Shown: positions 5,978 to 54,781 of the stretch, in pieces
Position numbering within the stretch: the stretch's first letter is position 1
Layout: each line of letters begins with the position of its first letter
Source of the DNA: a bacterium
Lineage (GTDB): Bacteria > UBP6 > JAFGXH01
Direction of reading: 5' to 3'
Assembly: GCA_027064085.1 (NCBI GenBank)
Contig: JAMOQH010000040.1
Span: 1-58,202, forward strand
Length of the DNA: 58,202 nt
Translations under genes and position numbers: made by a program
The notes under the pieces: generated by a model
The model's database searches: none
Told to the model about the DNA's origin: nothing
Seen by the model: the letters and a program-made list of their open reading frames with translations, nothing else

Positions 5978-6006
5978 TTGAATAATAATTTTAATTTTGT
6001 TATTAT
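5978..6006 (+). promoter_or_regulatory. Promoter of the four-domain DsbA gene
   Basis: TTGAAT (5978-5983), 17 bases, TATTAT (6001-6006). Transcription would begin near 6013, so the upstream in-frame TTG codon at 5978 cannot be the start. GTG 6047, with AGGAG at 6037-6041, is therefore preferred. Confidence 0.55.
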
Positions 6007-6046
6007 TCACAGTTTATTTATGTTGGTTATATTTATAGGAGTTAAA

Positions 6047-35758: not shown

Positions 35759-36898
35759 TTATTTAAGAATATTCATTTCTAAATTGTATAAATCGTACTT
35801 TTCTCTATTACCTGCTTTTTTATAGTAATTAGATAATGCTGAGTAAATTTGTTTTTTATTACAAATATGTTTTACTCTTTCTAAATACCTTCCTCTATTT
35901 AGAAAGGGGAGTTTATTTACATATTTTATATATCTATAACAATATCTTTTTATTAGCTTGTTGTTAGTATTAAAAATTACATTAATAGCTTTAGTATATT
36001 TTTTTTGTTTATAATATTCTTGTGCAAGATAAATCATATAGTATTTATTATAATTATCTAAGTCTCTAATGTTTTCTAATGCTAGAATTTCCTTATTTAT
36101 TTCATTATTATTTTTATATAGTATGGATAAGTAATAGTATAAATAATCTATTTTTTCTTTTTTTATTAGATTAAGAATAATCTTTTCAGATTTTTTAAAA
36201 TCTCCTATTTTTATAATATTTGAAGCCATGCTTTTATCTAAAGTCTTTATGTCTATATTTATTTTATGAGTTTCAATATAATTAATAATTTTCTTATAAT
36301 ATTTCGTTCTTATTAGATAATTAAAGTAACTATTTTTTTCTACTAGGTTTTTGGGTTTATAAAACTTAATAATATCTTTAGAGTATTTTGCTATCATTTC
36401 TTTTTTTAATAAAATTCTATGATTTATTAAATTATTGTCTATTTTTAGGGATAATTTTATTAAGCTGATTATTTCGCTCTTAGGATAATTCCATTTGGTA
36501 AAAATAAGTATTTTTAAATCTAAGAATAGAGATGATATTTTTATTTTTTGTAAAATATCTATGCTATAAATAATTAAATTGTTTTTTATTTCGGATTTAA
36601 TATTTTTTTTAATTAATAATTCTATAAATAATGTATGAATAAAATAAATATTATATTCTCGTTGCATTATTTTAGTTATAAATTCTTTTATTTCAATATT
36701 TTTTAAACCTTTTGATAGAATTTTTTTAGTTGAGGGTTTCAAAATATTCTTATAACTGTAATTTAGTTTTTGTGAATACTTATAATCCTTATAGACGATA
36801 ATTGAATAAAAAGTAGAATTAAAAATTATTAATAAGAGTAATAGATAATATACACTCATTCTTTTTACTTTTTTAATTTTAATTTTATAATAATTCAT
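35759..36898 (-). CDS. Membrane-anchored TPR-like protein
   Basis: About 379 residues; ATG 36898 overlaps the ligase gene, and another candidate start lies at 36859. One N-terminal membrane helix (SVYYLLLLLIIFNSTFYSIIV) leads a helical Lys-rich region in which several TPR-like pairs can be seen (YYYLSILYKNNNEINKEILALENI, KYYMIYLAQEYYKQKKYTKAINV). Long TPR proteins beside polymerases or ligases are common in polysaccharide loci, sometimes fused to Wzy-type proteins. The exact start and family are uncertain. Confidence 0.6.
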   Translation of the reverse strand: MNYYKIKIKKVKRMSVYYLLLLLIIFNSTFYSIIVYKDYKYSQKLNYSYKNILKPSTKKILSKGLKNIEIKEFITKIMQREYNIYFIHTLFIELLIKKNIKSEIKNNLIIYSIDILQKIKISSLFLDLKILIFTKWNYPKSEIISLIKLSLKIDNNLINHRILLKKEMIAKYSKDIIKFYKPKNLVEKNSYFNYLIRTKYYKKIINYIETHKINIDIKTLDKSMASNIIKIGDFKKSEKIILNLIKKEKIDYLYYYLSILYKNNNEINKEILALENIRDLDNYNKYYMIYLAQEYYKQKKYTKAINVIFNTNNKLIKRYCYRYIKYVNKLPFLNRGRYLERVKHICNKKQIYSALSNYYKKAGNREKYDLYNLEMNILK

Positions 36899-38201
36899 TG
36901 CTATTACTTTTATAATATTTATCAAAATTATATACTATTATATATAAAGAGGCCACTAAAAATATTAATATTTGGAATAAAATACCTATATGGGATTCAA
37001 AACTAGTAAAAATCTCAAAATGAAACATTAATATTGAAAACACTGTTGCCAAAAATAAATGATATGAATTACCTTTTAATTTTTTTAAAGCATATCTTAT
37101 AAAAACAATCATTTTGTAATATAAAAAAAGTATTATTAAAACGCCTACAGTACCATATTCTACTAAAAATTGTATGTAATCATTGTGAGCATGGTGTATA
37201 AATACTAATTCATTCCCGTTAGAATAATAAGGATAAATTATAGGGAATTGACCAGGTCCTATACCAAATAAAAAATTATCTTTGAATATATTTAAACTAT
37301 TTGTAAGGATTTCTTCTCTTAGTTTTAAGCTTACAGAACTTGTAATTTGTTTTGTAATAATAATTTTGGAATCAACAATTCCTTTATTTATGAAAATAAT
37401 GATAAAAACAATGAGAATTAAACTTAAAATTAATAATATATATTTTTTATTAACTCGTTTTCTTTCAACAATTGTATAAACTAACATCAAAATAAAAATT
37501 GAGGTAATTGCAGTTCGTCCATTTGTTAAATAAATAATAAAAATTAAAATAAAAACATGTAATGCTTTTATTATATTTAAAGAAATATCCTTGTTTTGGT
37601 TTTCTTTCTTCATAAAATAAAAATAAAAAATAATTGGTATTGGAATTGAAATAAACATTGCCAAATGATTAGGATTGACTAAAAAATAACTATTAGATAT
37701 TTTATTGTTAAATATATTAATTAATGAGTAGAAAGCCAATAAATTATATAGAGCAAAGGCTATATTGTATAGTAGTTTTATGTTCTTCCTAGTATTTAAA
37801 ATAAGTTTAATAAATAAGTAATTGCTAATAATTGTTAATAAAGTTAAAATCCCTGTCCAATAATTAAAGTTTATATGGGGCTTGGGAATAATATCGGAGG
37901 CCTTTAGGAATCTTAATTGAATCCATAGATTATTAAATTCAGTTAAATTATTATTAAGTTTAATGTTTCTATAAAACAAAGGGAGAAAAAGTATAATAGA
38001 ATAATAAATAAAAACGACAATTGGTAATTCAATAGAAAAATCAAATTTTTTATATGTTTTATGTTTGATTGATCTAAAAACAAAGTAATATGTATAAATA
38101 ATTAATATTAAAATAAAATTGATAATATCGTAATATGAGTAAACCCCACCATTAAAAAAAATTGATATTGTAAAAATAATTAATATTAAATACGCTCTTA
38201 T
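36885..38201 (-). CDS. O-antigen ligase / Wzy-like membrane protein, probable AUA start
   Basis: From 38201 it is 438 residues with about 11 helices, a normal size. The family signature lies near the end: GIGPGQFPIIYPYYSNG, HHAHNDYIQFLVEYGTVG. No ATG, GTG or TTG is in frame between the upstream stop and a TTG at 37979, which would cut off 74 residues including several helices. Right after the Wzc stop, GGAG, five bases and ATA give the start (M)RAYLILIIFTISIFF. So either AUA is the start, or the ATG was lost by mutation. The enzyme would polymerise or ligate the polysaccharide exported by the Wzc/Wza system beside it. Confidence 0.7.
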   Translation of the reverse strand: MRAYLILIIFTISIFFNGGVYSYYDIINFILILIIYTYYFVFRSIKHKTYKKFDFSIELPIVVFIYYSIILFLPLFYRNIKLNNNLTEFNNLWIQLRFLKASDIIPKPHINFNYWTGILTLLTIISNYLFIKLILNTRKNIKLLYNIAFALYNLLAFYSLINIFNNKISNSYFLVNPNHLAMFISIPIPIIFYFYFMKKENQNKDISLNIIKALHVFILIFIIYLTNGRTAITSIFILMLVYTIVERKRVNKKYILLILSLILIVFIIIFINKGIVDSKIIITKQITSSVSLKLREEILTNSLNIFKDNFLFGIGPGQFPIIYPYYSNGNELVFIHHAHNDYIQFLVEYGTVGVLIILFLYYKMIVFIRYALKKLKGNSYHLFLATVFSILMFHFEIFTSFESHIGILFQILIFLVASLYIIVYNFDKYYKSNSNELL

Positions 38202-38203
38202 TT

Positions 38204-40333
38204 CTACTCCTCTTTTTCTCCATAGTAATAACTATAATATCTTCCGTATTTATTATATTTATAAGATTTTGTCATACTTGCTTGATTTAAAACAATTCCA
38301 ATAACATTAGATTTAGCAAATAGAAACTTATCTCTTGATTCTTTTAATATATGTTTATTAGTTTTAGCATATTTAGCAACTAAAACAACTCCATCTACTT
38401 TTTTAGATATAACTAATGCATCTGAAACAATAGAAACAGGAGGAGTATCAAAAATTATTCTGTCATATTTTTCTTTTAAGTTTTCAATTAAAGAGTCAAA
38501 TTTATTTCCATTTAAAATTTGTATTGCATTTGGTGGAATTATGCCTGCTGTAATAATATCTAAGTTTTTAATTTTAGTTTTTCTTATAATTTCAGGAATA
38601 GATTTATTACCAGATGTAAATAATGTTAAACCAATTTTATTATCCACTGTAAATACCTTATGAACTCTTGGTTTTCTTAAGTCGGTATCGATTAATAAGG
38701 TTTTAAGCCCTTGCTCTGCCATTGAAGATGCTAGATTTGCCGCAATAGTAGTTTTACCTTCCATTGGACTAGAAGAAGTAACCAACATTGTTATCTTTTT
38801 ATTTTCACTAACTAGTTCAATATTAGTTAATATTGTTCTACAACTTTCAGCAAAGTTACCTCTTGGATCATGAAGAGAAATAATTTCTTTGTAATTTTTA
38901 TATTCTTCTTTCTCTATTTTTATATTATTAATTTTAGGCAAACTACCTAAAAATGTCATCTTATATTTATCTTCTATTTCTTCTTTTGTTTTTATTGTTT
39001 GGTCTAAGAATATCAACAATAGCATAATCATAAAACTTAGAATTCCTCCTAAAAAAACTGCTATTACTAAATTTAACTTTAAGTTTGGCTTTATTGGAGT
39101 AGTTGGTTCTTTTGCATAATCCAAAATTTCAACATTATTTGTTTGTAGCAAAAGTTTTAAGTTAGATTTTTTTAAATCTTTTAATAACATTTTATATACA
39201 TCTGTTTCACTATCTGCTTTTCTTTTATTTTGCTTATATAATAATTCATTTTTTTCAATGATAAGAGCACTATCCAAAGCTTCTTTTTTTAATGAAGCAA
39301 ACTTTTTTTCTTTAGAGCGTAATAATTTATATGAATTTTCAATTTGATTTCTATAATTTTCTTCTAGGTTACTAATGCTATCCTTAATATTATTAATCTG
39401 TTTTTTTAAAGAAATTACTTTAGGGGTATCGTTATTATATCTTTCTAGCAATTCTTCCATTTTATTTTTTTTATCTAGTAATCCTTTTTTTAATTCTTTG
39501 ACATTTTCTTGTGCGTTAAATGGCAGATAATCATTAAGGTTTTTAATTTTTTTTAAAAAATAATATTCTCTTTCTCTTTCTATTCTTTTTAACTTCATAT
39601 CATTGTATTTATTATCTAAATTATATATTTTCTGTATAATACTATTTCTTTTATCTTCAGAGAGAGTTAGAATAACCTTATTTTCATTTTTAAATTTAAA
39701 TAAATTATTTTCAGCTTCAATAACAGATTTATTAGCTTCATTTACTCTTTTTTCTAACCATACAATTGATTTTTTTAAATGGTTAGTTTTCCTGACTTTA
39801 TTATATAATTTATAATTATCAACATAATAATTAGTTAACTCTGTAATAAATTTTTTGTCTGTACCTATAATACTAATTAGAACTTTGTGAGTGTCTTCTA
39901 CTGGAGTAATTTCTAGCATATTTAATATTGTGCTGGATAAATCAAATTTCTTTTTATTTTTTTTATTTTTGTCTATTAATTTTCTAAAAAAGTCTGAATT
40001 TACTAAGTTATAATTTTTTATTAAAGTATTTATTAAATTTTTAGATTTTAATCTTTCAAATTCGGTATTATAAAAAGCATCATATTCTTTGAAAGATGTG
40101 TATGAGTAATCTTTTATTTCCTGAACAGGAGTTTTATCTTTAAAATTTATGATAATAGATGCAGTTGCTTTATACACTTTAGCTTGTTTCTTAGTATAAA
40201 AGTATGCTACAATAATGGATGATATTGTAATTAAAAGAATTAAATATTTGTATTGGTACATATAATTGTATATATCTTTTAATGATAAAAAATCATTTTC
40301 ATTATTTTCATTCTGCTCTATTATTTTATTCAT
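38204..40333 (-). CDS. wzc: Wzc-type polysaccharide co-polymerase and BY-kinase
   Basis: 709 residues. N-terminal Wzz domain with membrane helix (about 30-50), long periplasmic coiled coil (170-420), second helix with the Pro-rich PTTPIKPNLKLN before it, then the cytoplasmic tyrosine kinase: Walker A SSSPMEGKTT, A' LLIDTDLRKPR, B IIFDTPP. The C-terminal Tyr cluster (YKYNKYGRYYSYYYGEKEE) is the autophosphorylation site. It controls chain length and drives export through Wza. It is four bases from the wza gene, and the ligase gene starts three bases after its stop. Confidence 0.92.
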   Translation of the reverse strand: MNKIIEQNENNENDFLSLKDIYNYMYQYKYLILLITISSIIVAYFYTKKQAKVYKATASIIINFKDKTPVQEIKDYSYTSFKEYDAFYNTEFERLKSKNLINTLIKNYNLVNSDFFRKLIDKNKKNKKKFDLSSTILNMLEITPVEDTHKVLISIIGTDKKFITELTNYYVDNYKLYNKVRKTNHLKKSIVWLEKRVNEANKSVIEAENNLFKFKNENKVILTLSEDKRNSIIQKIYNLDNKYNDMKLKRIEREREYYFLKKIKNLNDYLPFNAQENVKELKKGLLDKKNKMEELLERYNNDTPKVISLKKQINNIKDSISNLEENYRNQIENSYKLLRSKEKKFASLKKEALDSALIIEKNELLYKQNKRKADSETDVYKMLLKDLKKSNLKLLLQTNNVEILDYAKEPTTPIKPNLKLNLVIAVFLGGILSFMIMLLLIFLDQTIKTKEEIEDKYKMTFLGSLPKINNIKIEKEEYKNYKEIISLHDPRGNFAESCRTILTNIELVSENKKITMLVTSSSPMEGKTTIAANLASSMAEQGLKTLLIDTDLRKPRVHKVFTVDNKIGLTLFTSGNKSIPEIIRKTKIKNLDIITAGIIPPNAIQILNGNKFDSLIENLKEKYDRIIFDTPPVSIVSDALVISKKVDGVVLVAKYAKTNKHILKESRDKFLFAKSNVIGIVLNQASMTKSYKYNKYGRYYSYYYGEKEE

Positions 40334-40336
40334 CGT

Positions 40337-40948
40337 TTATAACCATGATTCTGATACGTAAATTATATCTTCTGGAGATAATAATAAATCTCCAATTAAT
40401 CCTTTAATTATTAAGGAGGCTTCTATGGTAATAGAATTAATCTTTCCATTAATTTCTCTCTTTAATATTATCTTATCAATATCTGCAATATTTGTTAGAC
40501 CTCCACTTGTAGCAATTAACTTTAGTAGTGTTAATTTATGTTTATAACTATATGCTCCAGGTTTTTTTACTTGCCCAAGGATATAAACTTTTCTACTATT
40601 AGATTCTTTTAAGAAAATTGTTACTTGTGGATCTTTAAAAAATTTTTTATTTAGTTTTTTCTCAATTTCTTTAGTTAATGTGTAGATAGGCCTATCTATT
40701 ACTTTTATCTTTCCAATAATTGGATAAATAATTATGCCACTACTATTAATTCTGTAAGTACGAGTTAATTGAGCTTCTCCATAAACCCTTATTTCAATTA
40801 AATCATTAATTCCTAATATGTCAGATGTTTTAATACTACTATTTAATTTATAGATTAAATCTTTTTTATCTTTAGAAACTGTTTCCAATGAAGAATTACA
40901 AGATAGTATAAATAATGATATTAAAAGAATTAATATTTTTTTTGACAT
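40337..40948 (-). CDS. Short Wza-like polysaccharide export lipoprotein
   Basis: 203 residues with lipobox FILSC. The Poly_export domain (DLIEIRVYGEAQLTRTYRINSSGIIIYPIIGKIKV) is followed by SLBB-type repeats (RKVYILGQVKKPGAY, ATSGGLTNIADIDKIILKR). It is shorter than E. coli Wza (about 380) and lacks the C-terminal membrane-spanning helix, as in myxobacterial Wza proteins that depend on a separate beta-barrel. Such a barrel is encoded one base upstream of it. Role: periplasmic channel for the polymer. Confidence 0.87.
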   Translation of the reverse strand: MSKKILILLISLFILSCNSSLETVSKDKKDLIYKLNSSIKTSDILGINDLIEIRVYGEAQLTRTYRINSSGIIIYPIIGKIKVIDRPIYTLTKEIEKKLNKKFFKDPQVTIFLKESNSRKVYILGQVKKPGAYSYKHKLTLLKLIATSGGLTNIADIDKIILKREINGKINSITIEASLIIKGLIGDLLLSPEDIIYVSESWL

Positions 40949-42184
40949 TTAAAAAAATATATAAAAATTTAATGAAATTAAATGCTGTAAATAATCATAA
41001 TGAGTAGTGTTACCATTAAATGTAGTTGTGAAGTCTGTAAAAATTTTTCTTGCAGAATATTTTAATTCTGCTTTATATGCTTTATAACTATATGCTACAA
41101 ATGTAGAAAATCTCCCATCTATTTCAGATCTTGAACTAGGAGAGCTAATACCATTTCCTAATGATACATTAGAATATGCATTTAAGGTTGTATTTAAATT
41201 AAATCCTAAGTTGACATTATTTGTAAGAGCAATGTCTGTATTTAAGTAAATATCATAATAAGATAAATAATTTGAGAATAATACATCTTTAAATGAATTT
41301 TGAAAACCCAAAACAAAACTTGTCTTTTTTGAAAAATTATATGTTAATTCAGCATTGGCAATAAAAGAATTAAAGTTAGACCCTGAATCATACATAACAT
41401 AGGCCCAACCCAACATTAATTTTAAGGCAAGTTTAGGAGTAATAACACCTTTCAATCCAATTTTAGAAAGTATTGGAGTTGAATCAACAATATTTAATGA
41501 TGCCGAAGTTGATGTATCATTATTGTAATGTATTATAAACCCATATGATGTAGTTGATAATAATGCTGTTTTAGGCAAAAATCTCCATTCTATATCAAAA
41601 TTGAAATTATGTTCCATGTTATCTTGAGCTTCAGAAGCAATTTTAGTTCTATCAGATAAGTTATCAGTAAAGATTGTTTTATTAAATCCAAAAGAGTAAC
41701 CTAATCTAAATCTTAAAGCTTTGCCAAATGGAGTTGTTTGTATTCCAAAATTAAAATTATTTATAAATTTATTAATTGGAGTAGAGTAGCCTGAGTATGT
41801 TAGTTTAGAAAAGTTATCACTTGTGTATACTGAAAAATTACCTGTTTTAAAAAATGATAAATTTAAAGAACCATCTATGTCAAAATCGTTATTATTACCA
41901 ACAGTAGTTTTTGCTCCATCAACTAATGAAATAAAATGTCTATAGGATGTGTTTAAGCTGAATTTTAATTCGGTATTTGTTTTATTTCTATTTTCTAATT
42001 TTACACCAGGAAGAATTTTAAGCATTATGACATCAACTTCATTATTGGTTGATTTAAAGAAATTTGAGTTATATTCATTATAAGATGTTATATATGGTGT
42101 GAACTTAAATGCTCCTTTTTCTATTTCACTAGATAGTAATAAGGTGGTTAATCCTAAAAATAATACTAAAATAATATGTCTCAA
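40949..42184 (-). CDS. Outer-membrane beta-barrel of polysaccharide export
   Basis: 411 residues from a TTG start (AGGGG six bases upstream). A signal peptide (to about residue 18, LLLSS) is followed by alternating amphipathic strands and a terminal Phe (LNFYIFF), the usual barrel end. It is the partner type seen next to short Wza proteins in Myxococcota (ExoB/EpsX/Wzp-like), where the barrel replaces Wza's outer-membrane ring. Its position directly before wza and after the GltG-like gene supports the role. Sequence recognition is by pattern only. Confidence 0.75.
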   Translation of the reverse strand: MRHIILVLFLGLTTLLLSSEIEKGAFKFTPYITSYNEYNSNFFKSTNNEVDVIMLKILPGVKLENRNKTNTELKFSLNTSYRHFISLVDGAKTTVGNNNDFDIDGSLNLSFFKTGNFSVYTSDNFSKLTYSGYSTPINKFINNFNFGIQTTPFGKALRFRLGYSFGFNKTIFTDNLSDRTKIASEAQDNMEHNFNFDIEWRFLPKTALLSTTSYGFIIHYNNDTSTSASLNIVDSTPILSKIGLKGVITPKLALKLMLGWAYVMYDSGSNFNSFIANAELTYNFSKKTSFVLGFQNSFKDVLFSNYLSYYDIYLNTDIALTNNVNLGFNLNTTLNAYSNVSLGNGISSPSSRSEIDGRFSTFVAYSYKAYKAELKYSARKIFTDFTTTFNGNTTHYDYLQHLISLNFYIFF

Positions 42185-42242
42185 TTAATACCCCTATCAT
42201 GAACTAAGAAAAGTTATACCATAAGTTATAAATTTTGTCAAA

Positions 42243-43667
42243 TTATCCACCTGCAGAAAATGCAGCTGTAAATTTTATATTAATAGGAGGATTTGCTGGA
42301 GCAGGGAATTTAACTCTCTTTAACTTTTTCTTAATACAGCGACCCAATGACCTTGCCAAACTACTATCATTCATTCTAGTGCTTAATATTTCAATGTTAG
42401 AAGGTTTTCCACCTTTACCAACAGTTATCAAAATAGTTACACGACCAGCAAAAGAATTGTTTTTCTTAGCTTCTTTTTGATAGCAACGGTCAACCTTTCT
42501 TTTAGCTTTTTTAATTGCTCTAGTTGCAGTTTTCTGAGTCAGTTTGCCATCACCTCTTATGTTTATTTTTATTTTAGTTTTACCTTTTATTGCTACTTTT
42601 TTTATTTTTTTAGTATTTAGTTGTTTTCTGTTTTTACCAATATCAGGGTTTAAAGAAGTTGGACCTCCCTTACCAGTACCACCTTTTCTTGAATATCCAC
42701 TTCCTCCAGTAACTCCTGTACCAGAACCTCGTCCTCCAATTCCATCACCAGAACCAGAACCATAACCATAACCATTTCCCGAACCACCTGAATTCGTAGC
42801 TAAATCAGATAATGAGCCAATAGAATCATCTCCACTACCTCCACTAGTTCCATCATTAATTGCACCAAAACCACCATTACCTCCACCAGAGGATTTTAAT
42901 GAATGTAAGGCACTAATCATTTTACTTTTCTTTTTAATAGAAGCTTTAGCAACAGCTTTTCTTTCAGTTTTACTCATAGAAGATTTATCTACTTTCACTG
43001 TTTTAGTTGCCTTTTCTTTAGTTTTAACAACTTTTTTACCTTCTCCATCTTTATCACCTTTTTCATCACTTTTGATTTCAACAGGTTTTTTATCTTCAAT
43101 GGGTTTGTTCTGAATAATAACTTCTTTAAATCTATCAGGGATTTGATCCATTGTTAAAACCGATTCTTCATAATCTGCAGTTTGCAATACAACAATCCAA
43201 GCTATATGTAGTATCATAGATATCATTAAAGGAATAAAAAACTTTAAATCTAAGTAATCGATTGGTTTATTTCTAAATTGAGGTGGAATTTTATGTGGTG
43301 TCAAAAAATCATCTAGTGGTTCAATAAATTGAAATAAAATTTTTATATTATCATCAACTTTAACTTTACCCCTATCCTTTTGGGATAAAGGTATGGATAT
43401 AGATTGCCCCTTATATTGTTTTTTATTTACTCCATCACTTATTTCTGCTTCCATTACATCAGATAGATATAATGTTGCAGTACCTTTTTTACTAATAAAA
43501 AGTTTATATTTATTAGGAATCTTACTGTTAGTAACAATAATACTACTCTTAACTGTTGATCCTAAAGTTATAGGTTTGTTATCTTTAACAATAAATTCTT
43601 CAATTAGTCTACCAGATTGTAGAACACCTATTCTAAGTGCTAGTGTCTTTTTATCTTTAGAAGCCAT
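42243..43667 (-). CDS. GltG/PglI-like protein: FHA-like domain, membrane helix, AgmX/PglI C-terminal domain
   Basis: 474 residues. Residues 1-115 look like an FHA-type beta-sandwich (cytoplasmic); one membrane helix lies at about 140-162; a long low-complexity Lys and Gly/Ser/Asp-rich periplasmic linker follows; the last 95 residues are the TonB-like AgmX/PglI domain (VDRCYQKEAKKNN, GRVTILITVGKGGKPSNIEIL, CIKKKLKRVKFPAP) with its Cys pair. In Myxococcus the same architecture (GltG/PglI) couples the Agl motor to the outer Glt parts. The motor genes are immediately upstream, fitting that job. Confidence 0.82.
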   Translation of the reverse strand: MASKDKKTLALRIGVLQSGRLIEEFIVKDNKPITLGSTVKSSIIVTNSKIPNKYKLFISKKGTATLYLSDVMEAEISDGVNKKQYKGQSISIPLSQKDRGKVKVDDNIKILFQFIEPLDDFLTPHKIPPQFRNKPIDYLDLKFFIPLMISMILHIAWIVVLQTADYEESVLTMDQIPDRFKEVIIQNKPIEDKKPVEIKSDEKGDKDGEGKKVVKTKEKATKTVKVDKSSMSKTERKAVAKASIKKKSKMISALHSLKSSGGGNGGFGAINDGTSGGSGDDSIGSLSDLATNSGGSGNGYGYGSGSGDGIGGRGSGTGVTGGSGYSRKGGTGKGGPTSLNPDIGKNRKQLNTKKIKKVAIKGKTKIKINIRGDGKLTQKTATRAIKKAKRKVDRCYQKEAKKNNSFAGRVTILITVGKGGKPSNIEILSTRMNDSSLARSLGRCIKKKLKRVKFPAPANPPINIKFTAAFSAGG

Positions 43668-43687
43668 CTATATCCTTTAAATACCTA

Positions 43688-44272
43688 TTAGCTACCCTGA
43701 ATTACAGCAAACTTAATCTTTTTAAATCCGGATACAGAAGATGTTTCTACCACATCATTTATAACTCTGTAAGGGATTGTTTTGTCTGCAATGATAGTAA
43801 TTAATCCTTTAAATTTTCTTTTTCCTCCAGATGCTCTTTGTAAATCTTTTAGATATTCTGCTTTTTCTTCTAGAACATCCTTAAGCGTTGCAATCACATG
43901 AGTTTCTGGAGAACCATTTAACATATCTGCATCATCAACCATTTCATTTTGAAGTTTAACTTCTCTAGCTTTCGGATCTTTTTCTACAACAATACTATTT
44001 TTAGTAACATAAACTTTAATAGTTTGTTCTAGCTTTAATAAACCCGTTGACTTGGGAAGTTGTAGTTCTTCAGACATTTGTATTGAATCAGCTTTATTAG
44101 AGAAACTTTTCAACAAGAAAATTAATAAAATTGTCATAATATCCATTAAAGAATTCATTCCAAGGCCTCCACTTGCCTTTTCTCTCTTTAATTTACGAAT
44201 AAACTTTTTGAGATTTTGCTGATCCTCAAACATTTTATCTACTTTTAATTGATGCTCTTTATTTTTATTCAT
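43688..44272 (-). CDS. ExbD/TolR/AglS-like motor protein
   Basis: 194 residues from ATG 44272 (AGGAG upstream). The cytoplasmic start is Lys-rich; the single helix is LGMNSLMDIMTILLIFLLKSF with the proton-carrying Asp (residue 44) in place. The periplasmic part shows QLPKSTGLLKLEQTIKVYVTKNSIVV and a C-terminal TIIADKTIPYRVINDVVETSSVSGFKKIKFAV, the usual ExbD fold. It is one of two ExbD-type genes behind the ExbB gene, as AglQ and AglS accompany AglR in Myxococcus. It probably powers the cluster. Confidence 0.85.
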   Translation of the reverse strand: MNKNKEHQLKVDKMFEDQQNLKKFIRKLKREKASGGLGMNSLMDIMTILLIFLLKSFSNKADSIQMSEELQLPKSTGLLKLEQTIKVYVTKNSIVVEKDPKAREVKLQNEMVDDADMLNGSPETHVIATLKDVLEEKAEYLKDLQRASGGKRKFKGLITIIADKTIPYRVINDVVETSSVSGFKKIKFAVIQGS

Positions 44273-44336
44273 CAATAACTCCTATAATACCTACTCTTAA
44301 TTAATATGACACTATTAATTAATAAAAGTTCCAACT

Positions 44337-45170: not shown

Positions 45171-45181
45171 ATGTTAACCCC

Positions 45182-45844: not shown

Positions 45845-45927
45845 AGTTTCCTCCAAATAAATCAAAAATTAAAACTAGAACGAATAATAACATAAAGATT
45901 TAATAATTTCTACTTTTTTTTAAAAAA

Positions 45928-46173
45928 TTAGAAAGGTTTTTCATTTACACTGTTAATTATATCAGGTATTAAATCTTTATCTCTTTTTAAGTTCTTTATC
46001 TTTAGTCTTTTATGAGATAGAGTTGATAGTAATTCCGGCTTATGTATCTTAGGATGGAACTCTATTGTATCTAACTCAATTGTCTTAATATTTTTACTTT
46101 CTTGCTTTTTTGCTAAAGCAATATTTGATAGTAAATAAAGAGATAGAAATATAAAAATTAATGTTTTTTTCAT
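45928..46173 (-). CDS. Small secreted basic protein, 81 residues
   Basis: Signal peptide MKKTLIFIFLSLYLLSNIALA, then about 60 basic residues (KTIELDTIEFHPKIHKPELL..HKRLKIKNLKRDKD). No family recognised. It lies 8 bases after the TPR lipoprotein gene and before the ExbB gene, so it is co-transcribed with the machine and may be a small periplasmic partner. Confidence 0.65.
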   Translation of the reverse strand: MKKTLIFIFLSLYLLSNIALAKKQESKNIKTIELDTIEFHPKIHKPELLSTLSHKRLKIKNLKRDKDLIPDIINSVNEKPF

Positions 46174-46181
46174 GTTATCTC

Positions 46182-47801
46182 CTACTTTTCATCATCATCA
46201 ATATTTTTTTCTTTTTTTTCTTCTTTTTTCCCCTCTTCAGTTTTGTCTTCAGTTTTGTCTTCAGTTTTATCTTCAGTTTTGTCTTCAGCTTTATCTTCAG
46301 CTTTGTCTTCAGCTTTATCTTCAGCTTTATCTTCAGCTTTATCTTCAGCTTTATCTTCAGCTTTGTCTTCAGCTTTGTCTTCAGCTTTGTCCTCTATCTT
46401 TTCGGTAAGTTTAGCCTGTTGAACTGCCTTAGCGGTTTTAGCTTCATTAATTAAATTATTAGCATTCATCTTTTTAAAATCCTTTTTAGGCAATAATTTA
46501 TTATATTTTTCGAAAGCTTCTACTGCCAAATCATATTTTTTTATAACATCTATACCCTTTAAAGTTCTAGTTAAGTATAAAACTCCTAGATTATAATATA
46601 CTGCGTAACTGTTTTTATCAAGATTTTCTGCTTTTAGCAAATATTTAAATGCTTCATCATTTTCATCAAGCTCATACAGTACTAATCCGTAGTTCATATA
46701 AGTAAATGCAGTTTTTCTTAGTTTAATTACCTTTTCATAATTAGCTTTTGAACTTAAGAGCATTTTCGTTTTAGCTTCTTTCGCCTTTAGCTTTAACGAA
46801 ACTTTGTAATCCAGATATGCAAGCCAATCACCTGCTTCAAAAAATTTTGGATTCAAATTAAAAGCTTCTTCAAATGAATCATGGGCTTCTTTAAAATTTT
46901 TATTTTCATATGATATTAATCCTTTGATAAAATATAGCTCAGGAAGCTGATACATTAGCTCATCTACTTTAGTTATAACATAAAAAGCTAAATCTTTTGA
47001 ACCTGTATAATAATAAGCAAGGGCAAGTAATTTTAAAGCCTCTTTGTTATTTTGATTTAATTTTAGAATTTCTTTTGACATATAAATAACTTTTTTATAT
47101 TTTTGAAGAGAATAGTACCCTTTATCAACTAAAAGCATAATTTTATAATTATCAGAAAACTTTTTTAACAATAAAAATAGCATTTCTTCTGCTTTTTTAG
47201 GATTTTTACTTAAAAGTATTCTGAATTTAAGACTCAGACTATATATATTCTCAGGATTTAATTTTAATGATAGGTCTATGTTAAATAAAGAATTATCATT
47301 ATCTTTCAAATCGTAATAAAATTTAGCTTTATAATAATATAAAATATCACTTTTAGGATATTCTTTCAATAAATTATCAATCTTATCTAGTTGTTCCTTT
47401 CCTTTTAGTTTGAGAAAAGCTGTAATTTCCGAATTAATTTTAATTTTATCATTAACCGTAATTATATCAGTCTTTTTCTCTTCTTCCATTTTTTTGTCTT
47501 CAGCTTTATCCTCTTCATCAGTTTTAGAAGAAATATTTTCTATTTTACTGTCTTTTGATGGTTCAACGGGAAGATTTTCTTTTTTTTCTTTATCTCCATC
47601 TGAATCTTTAGTAGGATAAGACGCCGTCTTATCCTTACTATTGGCTTTATCAGAAGATTTATCCACTTCTCCTTTTTTATTTTTTTTCTGTTCTAAAACT
47701 GTATTTGTCTGAGGTTTGGTCTTTTTTTCTGTTTTGGATGCACCACTACAGGAAGACAAAAACAGAAGCAGTAATGTGATTAATATAATTATTTTTTTCA
47801 T
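46182..47801 (-). CDS. TPR lipoprotein with EDKA repeat tail (GltE/AglT-like position)
   Basis: 539 residues. Lipobox LSSC (Cys18), a Lys/Glu/Ser-rich linker to about 115, then TPR pairs from about 130 to 460 (SDILYYYKAKFYYDLKDNDNSLFNIDLSLKLNPENI, EALKLLALAYYYTGSKDLAFYV, KNFKEAHDSFEEAFNLNPKF). The tail has nine EDKA and four EDKT units in a row, then a Lys/Glu end. The only TPR lipoprotein in the cluster, it corresponds in kind to AglT/GltE of Myxococcus. It overlaps the upstream gene by four bases. Confidence 0.78.
   Translation of the reverse strand: MKKIIILITLLLLFLSSCSGASKTEKKTKPQTNTVLEQKKNKKGEVDKSSDKANSKDKTASYPTKDSDGDKEKKENLPVEPSKDSKIENISSKTDEEDKAEDKKMEEEKKTDIITVNDKIKINSEITAFLKLKGKEQLDKIDNLLKEYPKSDILYYYKAKFYYDLKDNDNSLFNIDLSLKLNPENIYSLSLKFRILLSKNPKKAEEMLFLLLKKFSDNYKIMLLVDKGYYSLQKYKKVIYMSKEILKLNQNNKEALKLLALAYYYTGSKDLAFYVITKVDELMYQLPELYFIKGLISYENKNFKEAHDSFEEAFNLNPKFFEAGDWLAYLDYKVSLKLKAKEAKTKMLLSSKANYEKVIKLRKTAFTYMNYGLVLYELDENDEAFKYLLKAENLDKNSYAVYYNLGVLYLTRTLKGIDVIKKYDLAVEAFEKYNKLLPKKDFKKMNANNLINEAKTAKAVQQAKLTEKIEDKAEDKAEDKAEDKAEDKAEDKAEDKAEDKAEDKAEDKTEDKTEDKTEDKTEEGKKEEKKEKNIDDDEK
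46235..46390 (-). repeat. Thirteen 12-bp tandem repeats (EDKA/EDKT)
   Basis: Thirteen copies of a 12-base unit with single-base variants, without interruption, in frame inside the TPR lipoprotein. Copy changes would keep the reading frame and alter the length of the charged tail. Confidence 0.92.
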
Positions 47802-50800
47802 TTTCCATCCTCCTCTACATTATCAGGAGTATTTTCAGATTTTTTACTTTTTATTTCATAGAGAGGTATAGAATTATCTTCTAGTTTCAAGATTCTATTT
47901 TCTTTATCTATTAACTTCTTAGGTATTTTATAGGTATCTTTATCTATTTTGTTTAACTCAAGTAATAGTTTTTTTGTCCAATCGTTATCAATATTCAATT
48001 TAATTGCATAAGTGTATGCTTCTTTATATAGCTTTTCTGCAGTATCTAAGTATGGTTCTGCAAAATCTTCTAAATCTTCTTTGTAGGCATCCTGTTCATC
48101 TTCATCCAAGTTTTTTGGTGCTTTAACTGCAAACAATGCTTCTGCAAACTGTTTATTTAAGTACCCTTTTCTGAAATATGCAGCAATTGCCCACTCTGGT
48201 TCTTTATATTTTGCAATCAGGCTATTATACAGTTTTGTCATTTTTACAGCATATTTGATTTTCTTTTTGATATTAATTAAAGGGTTTCTTCCTCCTACAG
48301 GCATTCTTTCATATATAGGCAATAGTTTTTCAACTTGTAGAAAATTTGTTTTTGATGCAAGATATTTTGCTCTTAAATATTCTTTACCTAAAGGAGACTT
48401 TAAATCATTAGGCTGTTTTAGCTTTGCAAATATCTTATAAGTGTTTCTCAAATATTTATCAGCGTTTTTCTTTTGATTTAGCTTTAAATATGTTTCATAG
48501 ATATAATAATTCATAATTACAGCTCTATACCTATATTTTGGTTTTTTTCCAAAAGTTTTAATGAAAAGTTTATATGTTTTTATTACTTTATTCCAAGCCT
48601 GTGCTTTCTTATAGGCTGCTATTGCATTCTGGATATATAAAACATGATTTTTTTCATCTAGTTTTGAACCATATTTTAAATAAAAACTAGCTGATTTTTG
48701 ATAATTCTTATTGTTGTAGTAAAGTTGAGGTAACTTACTATATACAAATTTTACATCGCCTCCATTAGGAAATTCTTTTAAATATTTCTCATAATAATTT
48801 ATTGTCATATTAAAATCAAAAAACCTTTCTGAAATATCTGCTATTGTTAGAATATTAGAAGATACTTCAATTTTATATTTTTTTTCAGAAAATAATTTTT
48901 TCTTATTTCTGATATACTTGTTTATTTCTTTTAATAAATTTATTCTTTTTAATGGTGTCTTAGCTTCTTTATATGCAAAATCAGCATTTCTTAGTGCTTG
49001 TAAGGCATTTGGGGAATTAGGATAATTTTTATATAAGGACATGTATGCTAAGGCTGCTTTTTCATATTTTTTATTTTTATAAAATTGTTCTGCTTTTTTG
49101 AATACAGAGGCAGATTGTAATGTTTTTATGTTTTCTAAATCTTCTTTTTTTAAATTAGAGTATTTAGGGTCTTTTATGATATTTGCATAAAATTGTTCTG
49201 CTTCATCATATTTTCTTTGTGCCATATAACTAAAATAAATATCTTCAAGAGCATATTTAGCTGGTTCTGAATCTGGATAATTCTGCATTAACTTAAAATA
49301 TCTCTTTCTTGCTTCTTCAAAATAATAATGTCTGTAATAGTCATTTGCTGACTTAAAAGAATAAATTGGAGCATCCTTATCTTTTGGAAACATTTTAATA
49401 AATTCATCACGAACTTTGATTAACTGAATATATTCCTTCGGCATTTTAAGTTTTTCAATTTTATCTTCTGAAGCCAATTTTTCTGAATCAGGTTTTCCTG
49501 CAAGTTTTAGCTCATTGTTTTTAATTTTTTCTTTTAGGATTCCTTCATAACAATCAATTAATCTTCTTGATGAGTCTTCGGTAAATTCAATATGTTCATT
49601 ATTATCTCTTACTTTTTTAAACATTGTAATAGCTTTTTTATACTGTTTTAAAAGGTATAATGTTTCAGCATAATAAAATTGAATTTTATAGTAATCCTTA
49701 TTTAATGGAAAATTAATCAATAGATTATCGTATAAACTAGCAGCCATTCCAAATGATAACATTGCTTTATCATTTTCTCCTTTTTCAAGGTAAGAATAAC
49801 CATTATTATAATGATAAGCTGCAGAATCATATAAATATCGAGCATTAAAATTTTGTAATAAAGCCATTGCTTTTTCATTGTCAGCATTTGCATTATACCA
49901 TGGACTTCCTTTTTTATAATCTTTTAAGAATCTTTCTCTTGCCTCAATTGCACCTTTTTCATCTCCAAGTTTAGCATACGCTGATATAATAAAGTCGTAA
50001 AAAGCTGGGTTTTCAGGGTGTAATGGATAGTATTCAAAAATCATATTATATATTTGTATTGAAATTTTCCACAAAGCACCATCATAATATGCTCTTGCCA
50101 CTTCAGATAAAACCTCTCTTGCATATTCAGGTTTCCCTTGCTTTTCCACATATTTTTTTAATACATCCGTATTGTTTTCAAAACCTTCGACAAATGAAAT
50201 CGCGGTGAAGGAAATTGCTTCTTCTCTGTATAATTTTATTTCATCTTCATCATTAGTATCATATTTCTGAACCAAACTAGAAAATATATCAATTGCATTG
50301 TTATAATCATTAATATGACTTGAATCTGCCACAGTATAATAAGACCAAGCCATTTTATACATAGCGTAATCATAGACATCATTACCTTTAACATTTAATG
50401 CTTTTTTATAGTTTTTTATAGCAAAATACTTGTAATAAGTTGCTGGTTTATCTGATTCCGGTCTTTTGTCATAATAATATTCAGCAATTCTTAAATATGC
50501 TCTTGCTGTATAATTACTATCAGGATAATTATCAACTAACATTTTAAAATATCTAAAAGCTTGTTCTGAGTAAATATTTTTCTTTCTTTCATTGTCAGTA
50601 TCTGCCTTTAACTGAAGATATATATATCCTGTTAAATAGTATGAGCCAGCAATTTCTTTATATTCAGGGAATTCATTAATAATTCTTTTAAAATAATACA
50701 GCGTTTTAGTATATTTTTTTTCTGGTTCAATTGGTTTAACTTTGGTTTTACCTGATTCATAGGCATCCATTTTGTTTTCATATTCATCTTTTTTATTTGA

Positions 50801-51328
50801 ATAATCAAGCTCTTCCTTTTCAAAATATAAATCAGCAAGTCTAAACAAAACATCAGGAGTATATTTTTTATTATTAGGATATCTTATAATGAAATCCTCC
50901 ATAACATTTATAGCCTGTTTCCTTTTTATTTCTTCTTCACCCATTAACTCTTTTGTTAGTTTATCATATCTTAATTTTATGAATTTTCTTTTATTAGAAT
51001 ATTCTGTTTTAACATGATCTAAAATGTAATTATAATAAGAGCTAGCTTGACTTTCATAAAGTTTATAAGCTTCTTCAAAATCATTTAAGGATTCTTTTTT
51101 TTCTTTAATTGTTTTTAATTGTTTTTTTACAGTTTCTATATCTCCTTTTGTTTCAGGGTGAGCAGAAGCATCACCCTTACTAGACGCAATTTTTTGCGTT
51201 TGGTTAGTATCAGGAGTTTTATTTATTTCTTTTTTTACATTTTCTTTTTTTTCTTTATTTTCAATATTTTGACTTGAAAATAAAGAAAAAGATAATAAAT
51301 ATATAAAAATAACTAATATTATTCTCAT
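47798..51328 (-). CDS. Large secreted TPR protein (GltD/AgmU-like position)
   Basis: 1176 residues. Signal peptide (to about residue 19, LFSS), low-complexity Lys/Glu/Thr linker, then many TPR repeats over residues 150-1060. Examples: KYTPDVLFRLADLYFEKEELDYSNK, NDKAMLSFGMAASLYDNLL, EEARKRYFKLMQNYPDSEPAKYALEDIYF. Long TPR proteins with many repeats (AgmU/GltD, AgmK/GltI) are structural parts of the Glt machine. It overlaps both neighbours by four bases (ATGA), so the three TPR genes are translationally coupled. Orthology is inferred from domain type and neighbours, not from sequence identity. Confidence 0.8.
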   Translation of the reverse strand: MRIILVIFIYLLSFSLFSSQNIENKEKKENVKKEINKTPDTNQTQKIASSKGDASAHPETKGDIETVKKQLKTIKEKKESLNDFEEAYKLYESQASSYYNYILDHVKTEYSNKRKFIKLRYDKLTKELMGEEEIKRKQAINVMEDFIIRYPNNKKYTPDVLFRLADLYFEKEELDYSNKKDEYENKMDAYESGKTKVKPIEPEKKYTKTLYYFKRIINEFPEYKEIAGSYYLTGYIYLQLKADTDNERKKNIYSEQAFRYFKMLVDNYPDSNYTARAYLRIAEYYYDKRPESDKPATYYKYFAIKNYKKALNVKGNDVYDYAMYKMAWSYYTVADSSHINDYNNAIDIFSSLVQKYDTNDEDEIKLYREEAISFTAISFVEGFENNTDVLKKYVEKQGKPEYAREVLSEVARAYYDGALWKISIQIYNMIFEYYPLHPENPAFYDFIISAYAKLGDEKGAIEARERFLKDYKKGSPWYNANADNEKAMALLQNFNARYLYDSAAYHYNNGYSYLEKGENDKAMLSFGMAASLYDNLLINFPLNKDYYKIQFYYAETLYLLKQYKKAITMFKKVRDNNEHIEFTEDSSRRLIDCYEGILKEKIKNNELKLAGKPDSEKLASEDKIEKLKMPKEYIQLIKVRDEFIKMFPKDKDAPIYSFKSANDYYRHYYFEEARKRYFKLMQNYPDSEPAKYALEDIYFSYMAQRKYDEAEQFYANIIKDPKYSNLKKEDLENIKTLQSASVFKKAEQFYKNKKYEKAALAYMSLYKNYPNSPNALQALRNADFAYKEAKTPLKRINLLKEINKYIRNKKKLFSEKKYKIEVSSNILTIADISERFFDFNMTINYYEKYLKEFPNGGDVKFVYSKLPQLYYNNKNYQKSASFYLKYGSKLDEKNHVLYIQNAIAAYKKAQAWNKVIKTYKLFIKTFGKKPKYRYRAVIMNYYIYETYLKLNQKKNADKYLRNTYKIFAKLKQPNDLKSPLGKEYLRAKYLASKTNFLQVEKLLPIYERMPVGGRNPLINIKKKIKYAVKMTKLYNSLIAKYKEPEWAIAAYFRKGYLNKQFAEALFAVKAPKNLDEDEQDAYKEDLEDFAEPYLDTAEKLYKEAYTYAIKLNIDNDWTKKLLLELNKIDKDTYKIPKKLIDKENRILKLEDNSIPLYEIKSKKSENTPDNVEEDGK

Positions 51329-53991
51329 TTATTTTCTCCTAAAATCTCTTTAAACTCATTATTAAGAATCTTTAAACGATCTCTTTCTTGAGAATAATAG
51401 GATTGAATTTCTTTAGATAACTTATCTTTTCCTTTCCATATAACTTCTAATCCACCAAGGTCAGCATTTAGAATTAAATTATGAAATTTTCTATTTATTG
51501 CTCTAAAACTTGTTAAAGCTATAATTGTAGATAGTTTTTTTGATATCGCAATATTTTTATCAACTTCTAGTTTATATCTTGCTAGATCCTTTTTCTCTTT
51601 AAGAATATCTTCTTTTATTACCATCGCTTTTTTAAATATAATATCATCCAAACTATTTGACAGTTGATTAATCTTTTCTTTATAAGAATTTACTCTTTTA
51701 ATTAGTACAGCAGATTTTTTATATTCTGTAGTGTTAGTGTAAAAATTTCTTTCTTGCAATAGTAGTTTATATAATTTTTCTCTTATCTTTTTATCTGCAA
51801 CATGAGCTTTATCAACACTGTTAATACTTAGCTTCCATGCTTCTATTTTTTGGGCTACGGCTTTTACTCGTTTTTCCAGCAAAGATATTTTTTTCTTCTT
51901 TTTGGCTATTTCCTTATAGAAAGTATTTTGCTTACCCTCTGTGTAATGGATTGTTTTTATGTTTTCAGAAAATAAAAACTCCATCGCTTTAACTTCTTTT
52001 TTAAGATTCTTCACAAACATTTCTGATTTATAAAGCTTTTTATTAAGCCTGATATACTCATTATTTAGCTTTGATTTTCTTTTTTGATATTGACTCTTTG
52101 ATTTAGGAGTTTTATCTATTAATTCCCATAACTTCAAAGTTTTTAATCTTAAAATCTTTAACTTCTTATCATTTTTATTTACATAGTATTTATGAAAGTA
52201 GTTATTTAAGTGATAGTCTATTTCTAATAATTTTTTACTATATTCCAATAATCTTTTTCTTACATCTTCTGTTTTAGGAAAAAGAGCATTTATGCTTGTT
52301 TTATCAGAAAGCATTTTTAATAGAGTGTTTAATATATTCATAGAATCTTTTAGATACATTTTAGTATCATTAATATCTTTAACAATATTTTGTGCTTTTT
52401 TTACTAATTTTTCTGCTCTAACATATTTTAAAGCTTCTTTTGGTAGAAATTTTGATGCTGAAAAGCTATTGATATCAGAAGAAAGTATATTAGAAAAATA
52501 TGCCTCTAAGTCATTGTTATCGTTTATTATTTTTTGTAATTCTTCTGAAATAAGAGAATACCTATCTTCAATATAGCTATATGCCTCAGTCGCTTTTTCA
52601 AATTGATTCATTTCATTATATAAGTTTGCTCTTAGTAATAAAGCGTCTGGCACAATTGTTGAATCTGGTAGTACATCAATCAATAAATCAACAGCATATA
52701 ATGCTTTTTTAGGCGTTTTGGCTTTAACATAAGTCCAAGCTGATTCATATAACGAAGTATCATAAAATTTAGAATTTCTATTGATATCTTGATATGCATT
52801 TATTGCTTCTTGTAGATTATTTACCGTATAGTTAATTCTAGCAATAGATAGAATTGCTTGGTCTATAATTAATCTATCATCTGAATTATTTACTTTTCGT
52901 TTTGAGACTTTTTTAAATAGAGCAATAGCCTTATCATAAATTTTTAATCTTTCTAAATATGGTTTTTTAATTTTATCTCTTTTAGATGATAATTCTAGGA
53001 GGAGTTTTTTTAGCCTTGTTTCATTATTTTTTATTTTATTATATTTAATTTCCTGCTCTTCAAATCTTTTTTTTGTATTTTCATAAGATTCTTTAGCTAA
53101 TTTATAATTTTCATCAAATTCCTTTTTTTGTTTTCTTAATTTTTTATTTACTCTTTTTAAGCTGTAGTACCATTTATTAAATTGAATGTATTTTCTTCTA
53201 ATTTTCTTATATTTTAACTTTTCTTCATTGAAATCATCTTTTGTTTTTTTATATAAATCTTCTTCATCTATAAGCTTTGAATTTAAAACTAATTCTGCTC
53301 TATCTTTGGCTAAATAAGAATTTCTAATGTTTTCAAATTGATATTCTAAACTTTTGGCTTTTGCCGTATATGAAACAGCCGCATAGTAAAGTGCTTTAGA
53401 ACAAATATTACTAGTGTTTTTTATTTTTAAAAAGTTAGAAATGGCTTCATCGTATCTTTTTTGTTCAAACAAGGCTTTTCCCTTTTCATAATAAACACTA
53501 TCATCAATATCCTCACTTGAAGATTCCAATTCATTCATATATTTATCAGTTCCTCTAAAATCACCAACCTTTCTTGATATTTCTAAAAAATACCTTAAGG
53601 CTTTTTGATGGAATTTTTTATTATGATATTCTAAAACTTGTTGATAGTATTCTCTTGCACCAAGATAATTTTTTAAATATCTGAAGGATTCAGCAAGGTA
53701 AAATAAAGACTCTATATAAACAGGTTCATTTTTATATTGTTTTCTAGATACAATATCATAAAAAATCATTGTTGCAACAGGATAATCTCCTAGTAAATAA
53801 GTAACATATCCATCATTGAATCTTTTACTTAGCTTATAATCGCTTTTGAGAGCATTATCATCTAAATAATCTTTAGATAGATATTCAACTCCATTTTTTA
53901 CATTATCAAACTGTAATTGATAATCCTCTAAAGTTTCAGAGAATATATTTACAGTTATAAAAATTAAAATTATTACAAAGTTTTTATTCAT
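51325..53991 (-). CDS. Large secreted TPR and coiled-coil protein (GltI/AgmK-like position)
   Basis: 888 residues. Signal peptide MNKNFVIILIFITVNIFSE; TPR pairs near residues 55-260 (SLFYLAESFRYLKNYLGAREYYQQVLEY, KGKALFEQKRYDEAISNFLKI); a long Lys/Glu coiled coil about 235-350; further TPR (about 365-490); then a mainly helical, charged C-terminal half. Periplasmic. The mixture of TPR and coiled coil suggests a scaffold spanning the periplasm. It is coupled by a four-base overlap to the next gene and lies 2 bases after the first gene of the cluster. Confidence 0.78.
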   Translation of the reverse strand: MNKNFVIILIFITVNIFSETLEDYQLQFDNVKNGVEYLSKDYLDDNALKSDYKLSKRFNDGYVTYLLGDYPVATMIFYDIVSRKQYKNEPVYIESLFYLAESFRYLKNYLGAREYYQQVLEYHNKKFHQKALRYFLEISRKVGDFRGTDKYMNELESSSEDIDDSVYYEKGKALFEQKRYDEAISNFLKIKNTSNICSKALYYAAVSYTAKAKSLEYQFENIRNSYLAKDRAELVLNSKLIDEEDLYKKTKDDFNEEKLKYKKIRRKYIQFNKWYYSLKRVNKKLRKQKKEFDENYKLAKESYENTKKRFEEQEIKYNKIKNNETRLKKLLLELSSKRDKIKKPYLERLKIYDKAIALFKKVSKRKVNNSDDRLIIDQAILSIARINYTVNNLQEAINAYQDINRNSKFYDTSLYESAWTYVKAKTPKKALYAVDLLIDVLPDSTIVPDALLLRANLYNEMNQFEKATEAYSYIEDRYSLISEELQKIINDNNDLEAYFSNILSSDINSFSASKFLPKEALKYVRAEKLVKKAQNIVKDINDTKMYLKDSMNILNTLLKMLSDKTSINALFPKTEDVRKRLLEYSKKLLEIDYHLNNYFHKYYVNKNDKKLKILRLKTLKLWELIDKTPKSKSQYQKRKSKLNNEYIRLNKKLYKSEMFVKNLKKEVKAMEFLFSENIKTIHYTEGKQNTFYKEIAKKKKKISLLEKRVKAVAQKIEAWKLSINSVDKAHVADKKIREKLYKLLLQERNFYTNTTEYKKSAVLIKRVNSYKEKINQLSNSLDDIIFKKAMVIKEDILKEKKDLARYKLEVDKNIAISKKLSTIIALTSFRAINRKFHNLILNADLGGLEVIWKGKDKLSKEIQSYYSQERDRLKILNNEFKEILGENK

Positions 53992-53993
53992 AT

Positions 53994-54728
53994 TTATTTC
54001 TTCTTGTTTTTATTGATATTACCTGCTGTCAATTCTTTTGCAATACCTGCTTTAAAGACAATATCAGGCTTATCAGTGATGTTATTAAAATATCCACCCT
54101 TTTCTTTTAGTTCTACACTGATTGTGGCAACCGTACCTTCTTGTATATGAAAAGAACGATTTGCTTTTATTTGAAATTGGTAGCCTTTTGCATAATTAAA
54201 TAAACCCAATTCACTTATTTCTAGTTTTACAACAACAGAAAGCATATGAATACCAGGAACAACAACTTTATCATATAATATTTTTTCTTTTAATTTTGTA
54301 AGATTACCATCAATATCTACAAAAGTCCAAAGTTGTTCTCCATCTAGATAATACATAATAGATTTTACATTAAAATGAGAGAATTTATTTACATGCTTTA
54401 TTATTAATTTAGCAGATTGAATTGATTTACCGCTAATTAATGTTTCTTGTAGAGTTGATAATCTAGCTTTGGAACGAAATATCTTTTCTTTTAAAATATT
54501 AACATCTGTTTCTAAGCCTTTTAATTTAATTTCAAATTCTTGTTCGGTTAGCTCAGAAACCGTTTTTTTATTTTTAGGTAATAGCTCTTTGTTTTCAGCT
54601 TTTGTTCTATTCTTTTTAGCTATTGGTTCTTTAATTTTTGCATTATCTTTAATATTACTCACTTCTTTGGTTTGAGATAAAGCAATTATACTTATAAAAA
54701 ACAGGCCTATAATAAATAATTTTTTCAT
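53994..54728 (-). CDS. Secreted coiled-coil and beta-domain protein, first gene of the machine cluster
   Basis: 244 residues. Signal peptide (MKKLFIIGLFFISIIALSQ), a Lys/Glu-rich segment with a short coiled coil (residues 63-95), then a beta-rich domain (HFNVKSIMYYLDGEQLWTFVDIDG, VPGIHMLSVVVKLEISELGLFNYAKGYQFQIKAN). No family is recognised with confidence. As the promoter-proximal gene it should be produced with the TPR proteins that follow. Confidence 0.65.
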   Translation of the reverse strand: MKKLFIIGLFFISIIALSQTKEVSNIKDNAKIKEPIAKKNRTKAENKELLPKNKKTVSELTEQEFEIKLKGLETDVNILKEKIFRSKARLSTLQETLISGKSIQSAKLIIKHVNKFSHFNVKSIMYYLDGEQLWTFVDIDGNLTKLKEKILYDKVVVPGIHMLSVVVKLEISELGLFNYAKGYQFQIKANRSFHIQEGTVATISVELKEKGGYFNNITDKPDIVFKAGIAKELTAGNINKNKKK

Positions 54729-54752
54729 ATAATTCCCAAAAATATAATCTAT

Positions 54753-54781
54753 AAAATATCAAATGAGAGTTTAAAAGTCAA
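54753..54781 (-). promoter_or_regulatory. Promoter of the motor/polysaccharide cluster
   Basis: Minus strand TTGACT (54776-54781), 17 bases, TATTTT (54753-54758), 24 bases upstream of the first ATG. The only good candidate before the cluster. Confidence 0.55.

Follow-up and report, generated by a model that had tools for sequence, protein, structure and literature searches.

A predicted G4-type machine of the Agl-Glt-Nfs family adjoining a Wzp-Wza-Wzc exporter in a UBP6 bacterium

The window (the whole stretch of DNA analyzed here, a contig of 58,202 bases from a 3.65 Mb genome) carries on its minus strand, from 54728 down to 35759, a run of genes encoding F, C, D, E, a small protein, ExbB, ExbD1, ExbD2, G, Wzp, Wza, Wzc, a Wzy_C protein and a TPR-like protein. 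Judged from sequence, the cluster is a G4-type member of the Agl-Glt-Nfs family. The best explanation, to which we give a probability of about 0.6, is that a G4-type machine is tied to a Wzx/Wzy-type exporter, with its motor driving export or surface handling of the polymer.

Gene content of the cluster

The preliminary description had named TPR scaffolds, a TPR lipoprotein, ExbB, two ExbDs, a GltG-type protein, a barrel, a short Wza and Wzc, and all were found on the same strand and in the given place. It started the run at the TPR scaffolds, one gene too late, and overlooked an 81-aa gene. The true first gene, F (53994..54728), encodes a 244-aa signal-peptide protein without Pfam or NCBIfam match, for which an AF2 model predicts a conserved coiled coil (58-98) and a beta-sandwich. 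The fold matches of F are only middling (transthyretin-like and other beta-sandwich folds, Z under 9), and no function is claimed from them. C (51325..53991) is an 888-aa periplasmic TPR/coiled-coil protein matching TPR families and, weakly, the GltC model NF033756 (2.4e-9), and is considered GltC-like. D (47798..51328), a 1176-aa periplasmic TPR scaffold with TPR/YfiO matches, belongs to the GltD family. E (46182..47801) is a GltE-like TPR lipoprotein with a lipobox-like LPAM_1 match and homologues in the same place at other loci. Its C-terminus (46182-46400) is a run of EDKA repeats. The overlooked gene (45928..46173) encodes a small secreted protein with the C-terminal motif IHKPELL ... EKPF, which has relatives at G4-type loci and no credible Pfam match.

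The motor genes encode ExbB of the MotA/TolQ/ExbB family (45182..45865; PF01618, 1.7e-24), ExbD1 (44337..45170) and ExbD2 (43688..44275), both ExbDs matching PF02472, which places them in the ExbB/ExbD motor type. The transmembrane proton-binding Asp is replaced by Asn in ExbD1 (PIMN) and is present in ExbD2 (SLMD). Among the 27 distinct G4 motors compared (L114, a copy of L046, being left out), which are related by descent and thus display a pattern rather than a test, this ExbD1 position is Asn or Gly in 24, and the ExbD2 Asp is kept in all. The loss of the ExbD1 Asp with retention of the ExbD2 Asp is a new observation, and one acidic ExbD site may be sufficient for the motor. In 24/27 of these G4 motors, rows again related by descent, ExbB has a hydrophobic residue at the TM3 position occupied by Glu in AglR-like proteins. 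G (42243..43667) is a GltG-family transducer with one transmembrane segment, a Gly-rich linker and an AgmX/PglI (TonB-like) C-terminal domain that also matches TonB_C weakly. The combination of ExbB/ExbD with a TonB-like transducer resembles TonB-ExbBD. Unlike that system, the cluster has two dissimilar ExbDs, only one with a transmembrane Asp, a TPR scaffold, and an export porin in place of an import receptor.

The exporter genes follow directly. The outer-membrane porin (40949..42184) is modeled by AF2 as a barrel of exactly 18 strands (mean pLDDT 89). Its best fold matches are the AlgE alginate exporter (Z 21.4, 315 residues, 4.0 A), tied with OccK porins, and Wzp has been described as an 18-strand barrel (PMC9603273, PMC9601211). 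A phmmer comparison of the window barrel with UBP6 barrels gave no match, and the barrels of relatives were recognized by fold and profile matches. The adjoining Wza (40337..40948; PF02563, SLBB) is a short OPX protein of 203 aa that ends at its SLBB domain and is without an outer-membrane-spanning domain. From the short OPX protein and the adjoining modeled barrel, the pair is classified as a class 3 OPX/Wzp translocon, and polysaccharide export is predicted. Wzc (38204..40333; Wzz, GNVR, AAA_31; TIGR01007, 189 bits) is a predicted polysaccharide co-polymerase with a fused BY kinase. The next gene encodes a membrane protein of the Wzy_C family (36885..37979; PF04932, 3e-23). It had been called a ligase; because Wza and Wzc adjoin the gene, it is no less likely to be a Wzy polymerase. 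By their family matches, the kinase-bearing Wzc and the Wzy_C protein fit the Wzx/Wzy pathway, for which candidates for the Wzx flippase and the initiating transferase (four PF01943 genes and one PF02397 gene) are present elsewhere in the same genome. The last gene (35759..36925) encodes a 388-aa TPR-like protein with a weak ANAPC3 match only and overlaps the Wzy_C gene by 41 bp.

The start of the Wzy_C gene is probably further upstream, overlapping wzc. Its frame is open for 84 codons into wzc (37979-38231, minus strand) without ATG, GTG or TTG, and an AGAGGAG motif lies ahead of an in-frame ATA codon. The gene may use a non-standard start, or the sequence may contain an error.

Intergenic spacing from F through Wzc ranges from -4 to 62 bp. 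No terminator-like sites were found in a scan of the minus strand within the run, and a promoter scan gave no excess compared with shuffles. The spacing and the terminator scan are consistent with, rather than proof of, the F-to-Wzc run being a single operon, and its products may form one complex.

Assignment to the G4 branch and conserved gene order

In a phylogeny of 43 D proteins, the window D falls inside the G4 clade, that of the mglA-linked Myxococcus paralogue MXAN_1922, with 100/100 support. The G4 side contains loci from UBP6 and from records labeled Myxococcota and Bdellovibrionota. On the far side of the 100/100 branch are the Glt-locus D proteins of M. xanthus (contig C8) and Citreicoccus (C29), the latter adjoining a GltG that scores above the equivalog cut-off, together with the other Myxococcus paralogues and the D proteins of two further contigs of the same genome (C22 and C47). 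The D proteins of M. xanthus C31 (presumed Nfs) and C209 (presumed G5) are both outside the G4 clade.

Profile searches of G against the Glt families gave a mixed result. G scores 68.7 bits (4e-19) against the GltG equivalog model NF033760, approximately a tenth of the cut-off of 650, compared with 1094 bits for M. xanthus GltG. Against the AgmX/PglI C-terminal domain (NF033768) it scores 57.6 bits (1e-15) and passes the cut-off of 40. The preliminary description of an Agl/Glt/Nfs-like machine thus stands in that the machine is of the Glt/Nfs family and has an ExbB/ExbD motor of its own, with the GltC match weak, the AgmX/PglI domain passed and the GltG equivalog cut-off failed; the D and ExbB trees place that machine in the G4/M2 branch and not with Agl/Glt or Nfs.

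A gliding machine of the Agl-Glt kind, with the exporter making its slime, would be in keeping with the GltG-family protein, the GltC/D/E-like proteins and the ExbB/ExbD motor. We consider it very improbable, given the fully supported position of D outside the Glt clade, the low GltG score, the normal gliding of Myxococcus G4 and M2 mutants, and a separate Glt-like cluster on contig C22 of the same genome, whose GltG-like protein scores 187 bits and at which no exporter genes were found. A topA-like gene lies beside that cluster (L037) and also beside the presumed M2 motor (L253, M. xanthus C323). A third GltG-like protein of this genome, on contig C159 (L039), has its own ExbB and two ExbDs, with Ser at the Asp position of ExbD1.

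Searching one genome of each species with the D alignment as query retrieved 80 loci. At least 4 kb of upstream DNA was available for 59 of them, of which 57 have F upstream of D and 56 have C. Of the 43 loci with 9 kb or more downstream, all have G, 32 have Wzp, 31 have Wza and 17 have ExbB, compared with 0/9 paralogue clusters of equal flank for Wzp and Wza. The linkage of Wza to D (31/43 vs 0/9) has a Fisher p of 8e-5, a value that ignores the kinship of the loci. Of the 56 loci whose DNA extends over both E and G, 51 contain the 81-aa-type small protein, compared with 0/9 paralogue clusters, and on this sequence evidence a small protein between E and ExbB/G is a hallmark of G4-type clusters. 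One locus, L064 (DYRY01000014.1), is from a MAG labeled Anaeromyxobacter dehalogenans that falls in the family of this low-GC organism, and the label looks wrong.

The preliminary claim that motor and exporter are contiguous was borne out, and the order recurs in at least two phyla (UBP6 and Myxococcota). Since the order recurs in another phylum and the only Wza found in the genome lies inside this cluster, the association goes far beyond chance, and the conserved contiguity makes a functional link between motor and exporter likely. Far from being peculiar to an AT-rich genome, the arrangement occurs widely in Myxococcota and UBP6. It is not universal: the sister genus (G001, G002) has an intact Wzp-Wza-Wzc set, but in another context, away from the motor.

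Two envelope operons might also lie side by side through common descent without shared function. The broken linkage in the sister genus and the 12/43 G4 loci without a nearby Wza agree with this explanation. Against it, the order is kept from UBP6 to Myxococcaceae, between which the D proteins are approximately 25% identical, far beyond the usual lifetime of neutral gene order, and we regard it as unlikely. All 12 genomes of the loci without a nearby Wza carry Wza elsewhere.

Relationship to the Myxococcus G4, M2 and BPS genes

The function of the M. xanthus G4 cluster, which contains the gltD paralogue MXAN_1922, and of the M2 motor (MXAN_3003-3005) was given as unknown, the G4 and M2 mutants glide normally, and a polar mutation in MXAN_1922 caused no appreciable motility change (Luciano 2011, PMC3169522). 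In M. eversor, a single contig carries MglA, F, C, D, E, small protein, G, a cNMP-binding protein, H, Wzp and Wza. These genes are also present in M. xanthus AM003, spread over three broken contigs, one of which carries both Wzp and Wza. In the published tags, mglA is MXAN_1925, the gltD paralogue 1922, WzpB 1916 and WzaB 1915, and the numbering from 1925 to 1915 fits the observed gene count exactly, gene for gene; by this count, MXAN_1924, 1923 and 1921-1917 would be the remaining genes of the run, with 1920 as the predicted small protein and 1919 as the predicted G. The cNMP-binding gene between G and Wzp in Myxococcaceae (L079, 16245-16829) has similar counterparts after G in L069 and L108.

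Only two close ExbBs were found in the M. xanthus genome, on contigs C323 and C111. In the ExbB phylogeny, the C323 protein and its relatives nest in the G4-linked clade (93/92), and the C111 protein is outside. By elimination and the ExbB tree, and not by locus tags, C323 is presumably M2 and C111 AglR. The Asp position was uninformative for telling M1 from M2, as an Asp at residue 28 is possible in either M. xanthus candidate, and a search for the two by locus tags in papers gave no matches. In the Wza phylogeny, the window Wza forms a group with the G4-linked Wza proteins and the third of the Myxococcus Wza proteins (91/86, below the starred level), and the remaining two from Myxococcus are outside (99/97).

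Because the mglA-G4-WzpB-WzaB numbering matches and the ExbB of the presumed M2 motor branches within the G4-linked ones, G4 and M2 of Myxococcus are probably the envelope machine of the exporter of biosurfactant polysaccharide (BPS). In the literature searched, we found no published link of G4/M2 to the BPS exporter and no paper carrying the G4 tags together with the WzaB/WzpB tags; the passages of a 2025 review on BPS, Nfs, paralogues and OPX proteins contain no such link.

The window cluster and the M. xanthus G4 and M2 genes (PMC3169522) share F, C, D, E, the small protein, G, the ExbB branch and an adjoining Wzp-Wza pair. They differ in that the Myxococcus motor lies elsewhere, cNMP-binding and approximately 200-aa (H) genes lie between its G and Wzp, and the presumed M2 ExbD1 keeps the Asp that is Asn in the window. 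The WzaB/WzpB/WzcB proteins of the BPS pathway (PMC7310880, PMC9603273) likewise comprise a short OPX protein, an 18-strand barrel and a Wzc with fused BY kinase. There wzaB has been called orphan-like (Islam 2020), whereas in the window wzp-wza-wzc-wzy comes directly after the motor. These comparisons bear on the role of the G4 and M2 gliding-machine paralogues, without known function since 2011, and on the reason for the 'orphan' position of the BPS Wza, a megabase away from its pathway. They would link a functionless Myxococcus motor paralogue to one of the best-studied secreted polymers of this organism.

Possible roles of the motor

The tied machine and exporter would work as follows. ExbB and the two ExbDs would use the proton gradient through the single acidic residue in ExbD2 and move the GltG-like transducer. 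This work would be carried over the periplasm by the TPR scaffolds C, D and E, together with F and the 81-aa protein, to the outer membrane, where it would drive export or surface handling of the polymer passing Wzc, the short Wza and the 18-stranded Wzp. Two separate gene groups of Myxococcus, mglA-G4-WzpB-WzaB and the M2 motor, would together make up this machine, which would serve BPS.

Known systems offer an analogy. AglRQS uses the proton gradient and Agl-Nfs moves exported polymer (PMC3858216), and of the sister systems, Agl-Glt works on slime and Agl-Nfs on spore-coat polymer. Agl-Nfs resembles the window cluster in its ExbB/ExbD/ExbD motor, TPR scaffold, GltG/NfsG transducer and, as predicted for the window, action on exported polysaccharide, and differs in its D clade, a presumed nfs-type locus without Wza or Wzp nearby, and a motor shared with gliding. 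By this analogy the motor may move or handle the polymer, of which adjacency alone is no proof. The D, ExbB and Wza trees, the Wza linkage, the Wza genes elsewhere in 12/12 genomes, the single Wza of the genome itself, the Myxococcus numbering, the AlgE-like barrel and the sister systems argue for the tied machine. The 12/43 loci without a nearby Wza, the separate exporter of the sister genus, and the lack of any appreciable motility change in the polar MXAN_1922 mutant, although BPS mutants of M. xanthus spread less by pili, argue against it, as do Agl-Glt/Nfs, which are reportedly unneeded for slime or Exo export.

In a narrower form of the same explanation, whose probability is contained in that given above, Wzc-Wza-Wzp alone would export, and the motor would only move, release or arrange surface polymer, as Nfs does after export. 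Exo and slime can still be detected in M. xanthus lacking agl, and the step at which Agl-Nfs acts follows export. BPS is described as released from cells, which a shedding role would fit. In the account of Wartel 2013, Exo export and Nfs are separate, but the operon-like run described here, found in two phyla, combines the scaffold, the motor and the exporter and so points to a tighter coupling. We consider handling restricted to the exported polymer doubtful.

The motor might instead position or polarize the exporter, together with MglA, without moving polymer. An mglA gene lies upstream of the cluster, mostly directly, in 29/50 loci with enough DNA, and both motilities of M. xanthus are under MglA regulation. 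The window cluster, with no mglA beside it and the MglA homologues of its genome on other contigs, speaks against this role, which we judge improbable.

Returning to a motor acting on the polymer, we tentatively suggest, as a conjecture with the odds somewhat against it, that the third Agl-Glt-Nfs branch is a machine that exports polysaccharide with proton power and has an asymmetric ExbD1/ExbD2 axle with a single proton site, that the mglA-linked G4 and M2 of Myxococcus power BPS secretion, and that outer-membrane passage is motor-driven and not due to the push of synthesis alone. If the motor acts on export itself, outer-membrane polysaccharide secretion would have an extra energy source. 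The comparison further suggests that gliding arose from a conserved core whose work may have been on polysaccharide.

Other genes in the window were also noted. Just upstream of the cluster (54860-57808, minus strand) is a lipoprotein-like gene with EGF-like repeats fused to an alpha-amylase domain. Outside the cluster, a second MotA/ExbB-family protein (PF01618; 10179-12085, plus strand) is directly followed by a vWA-domain protein, and a 953-aa protein (5978-8839, plus strand) contains four DsbA/thioredoxin-4 stretches in a single chain.
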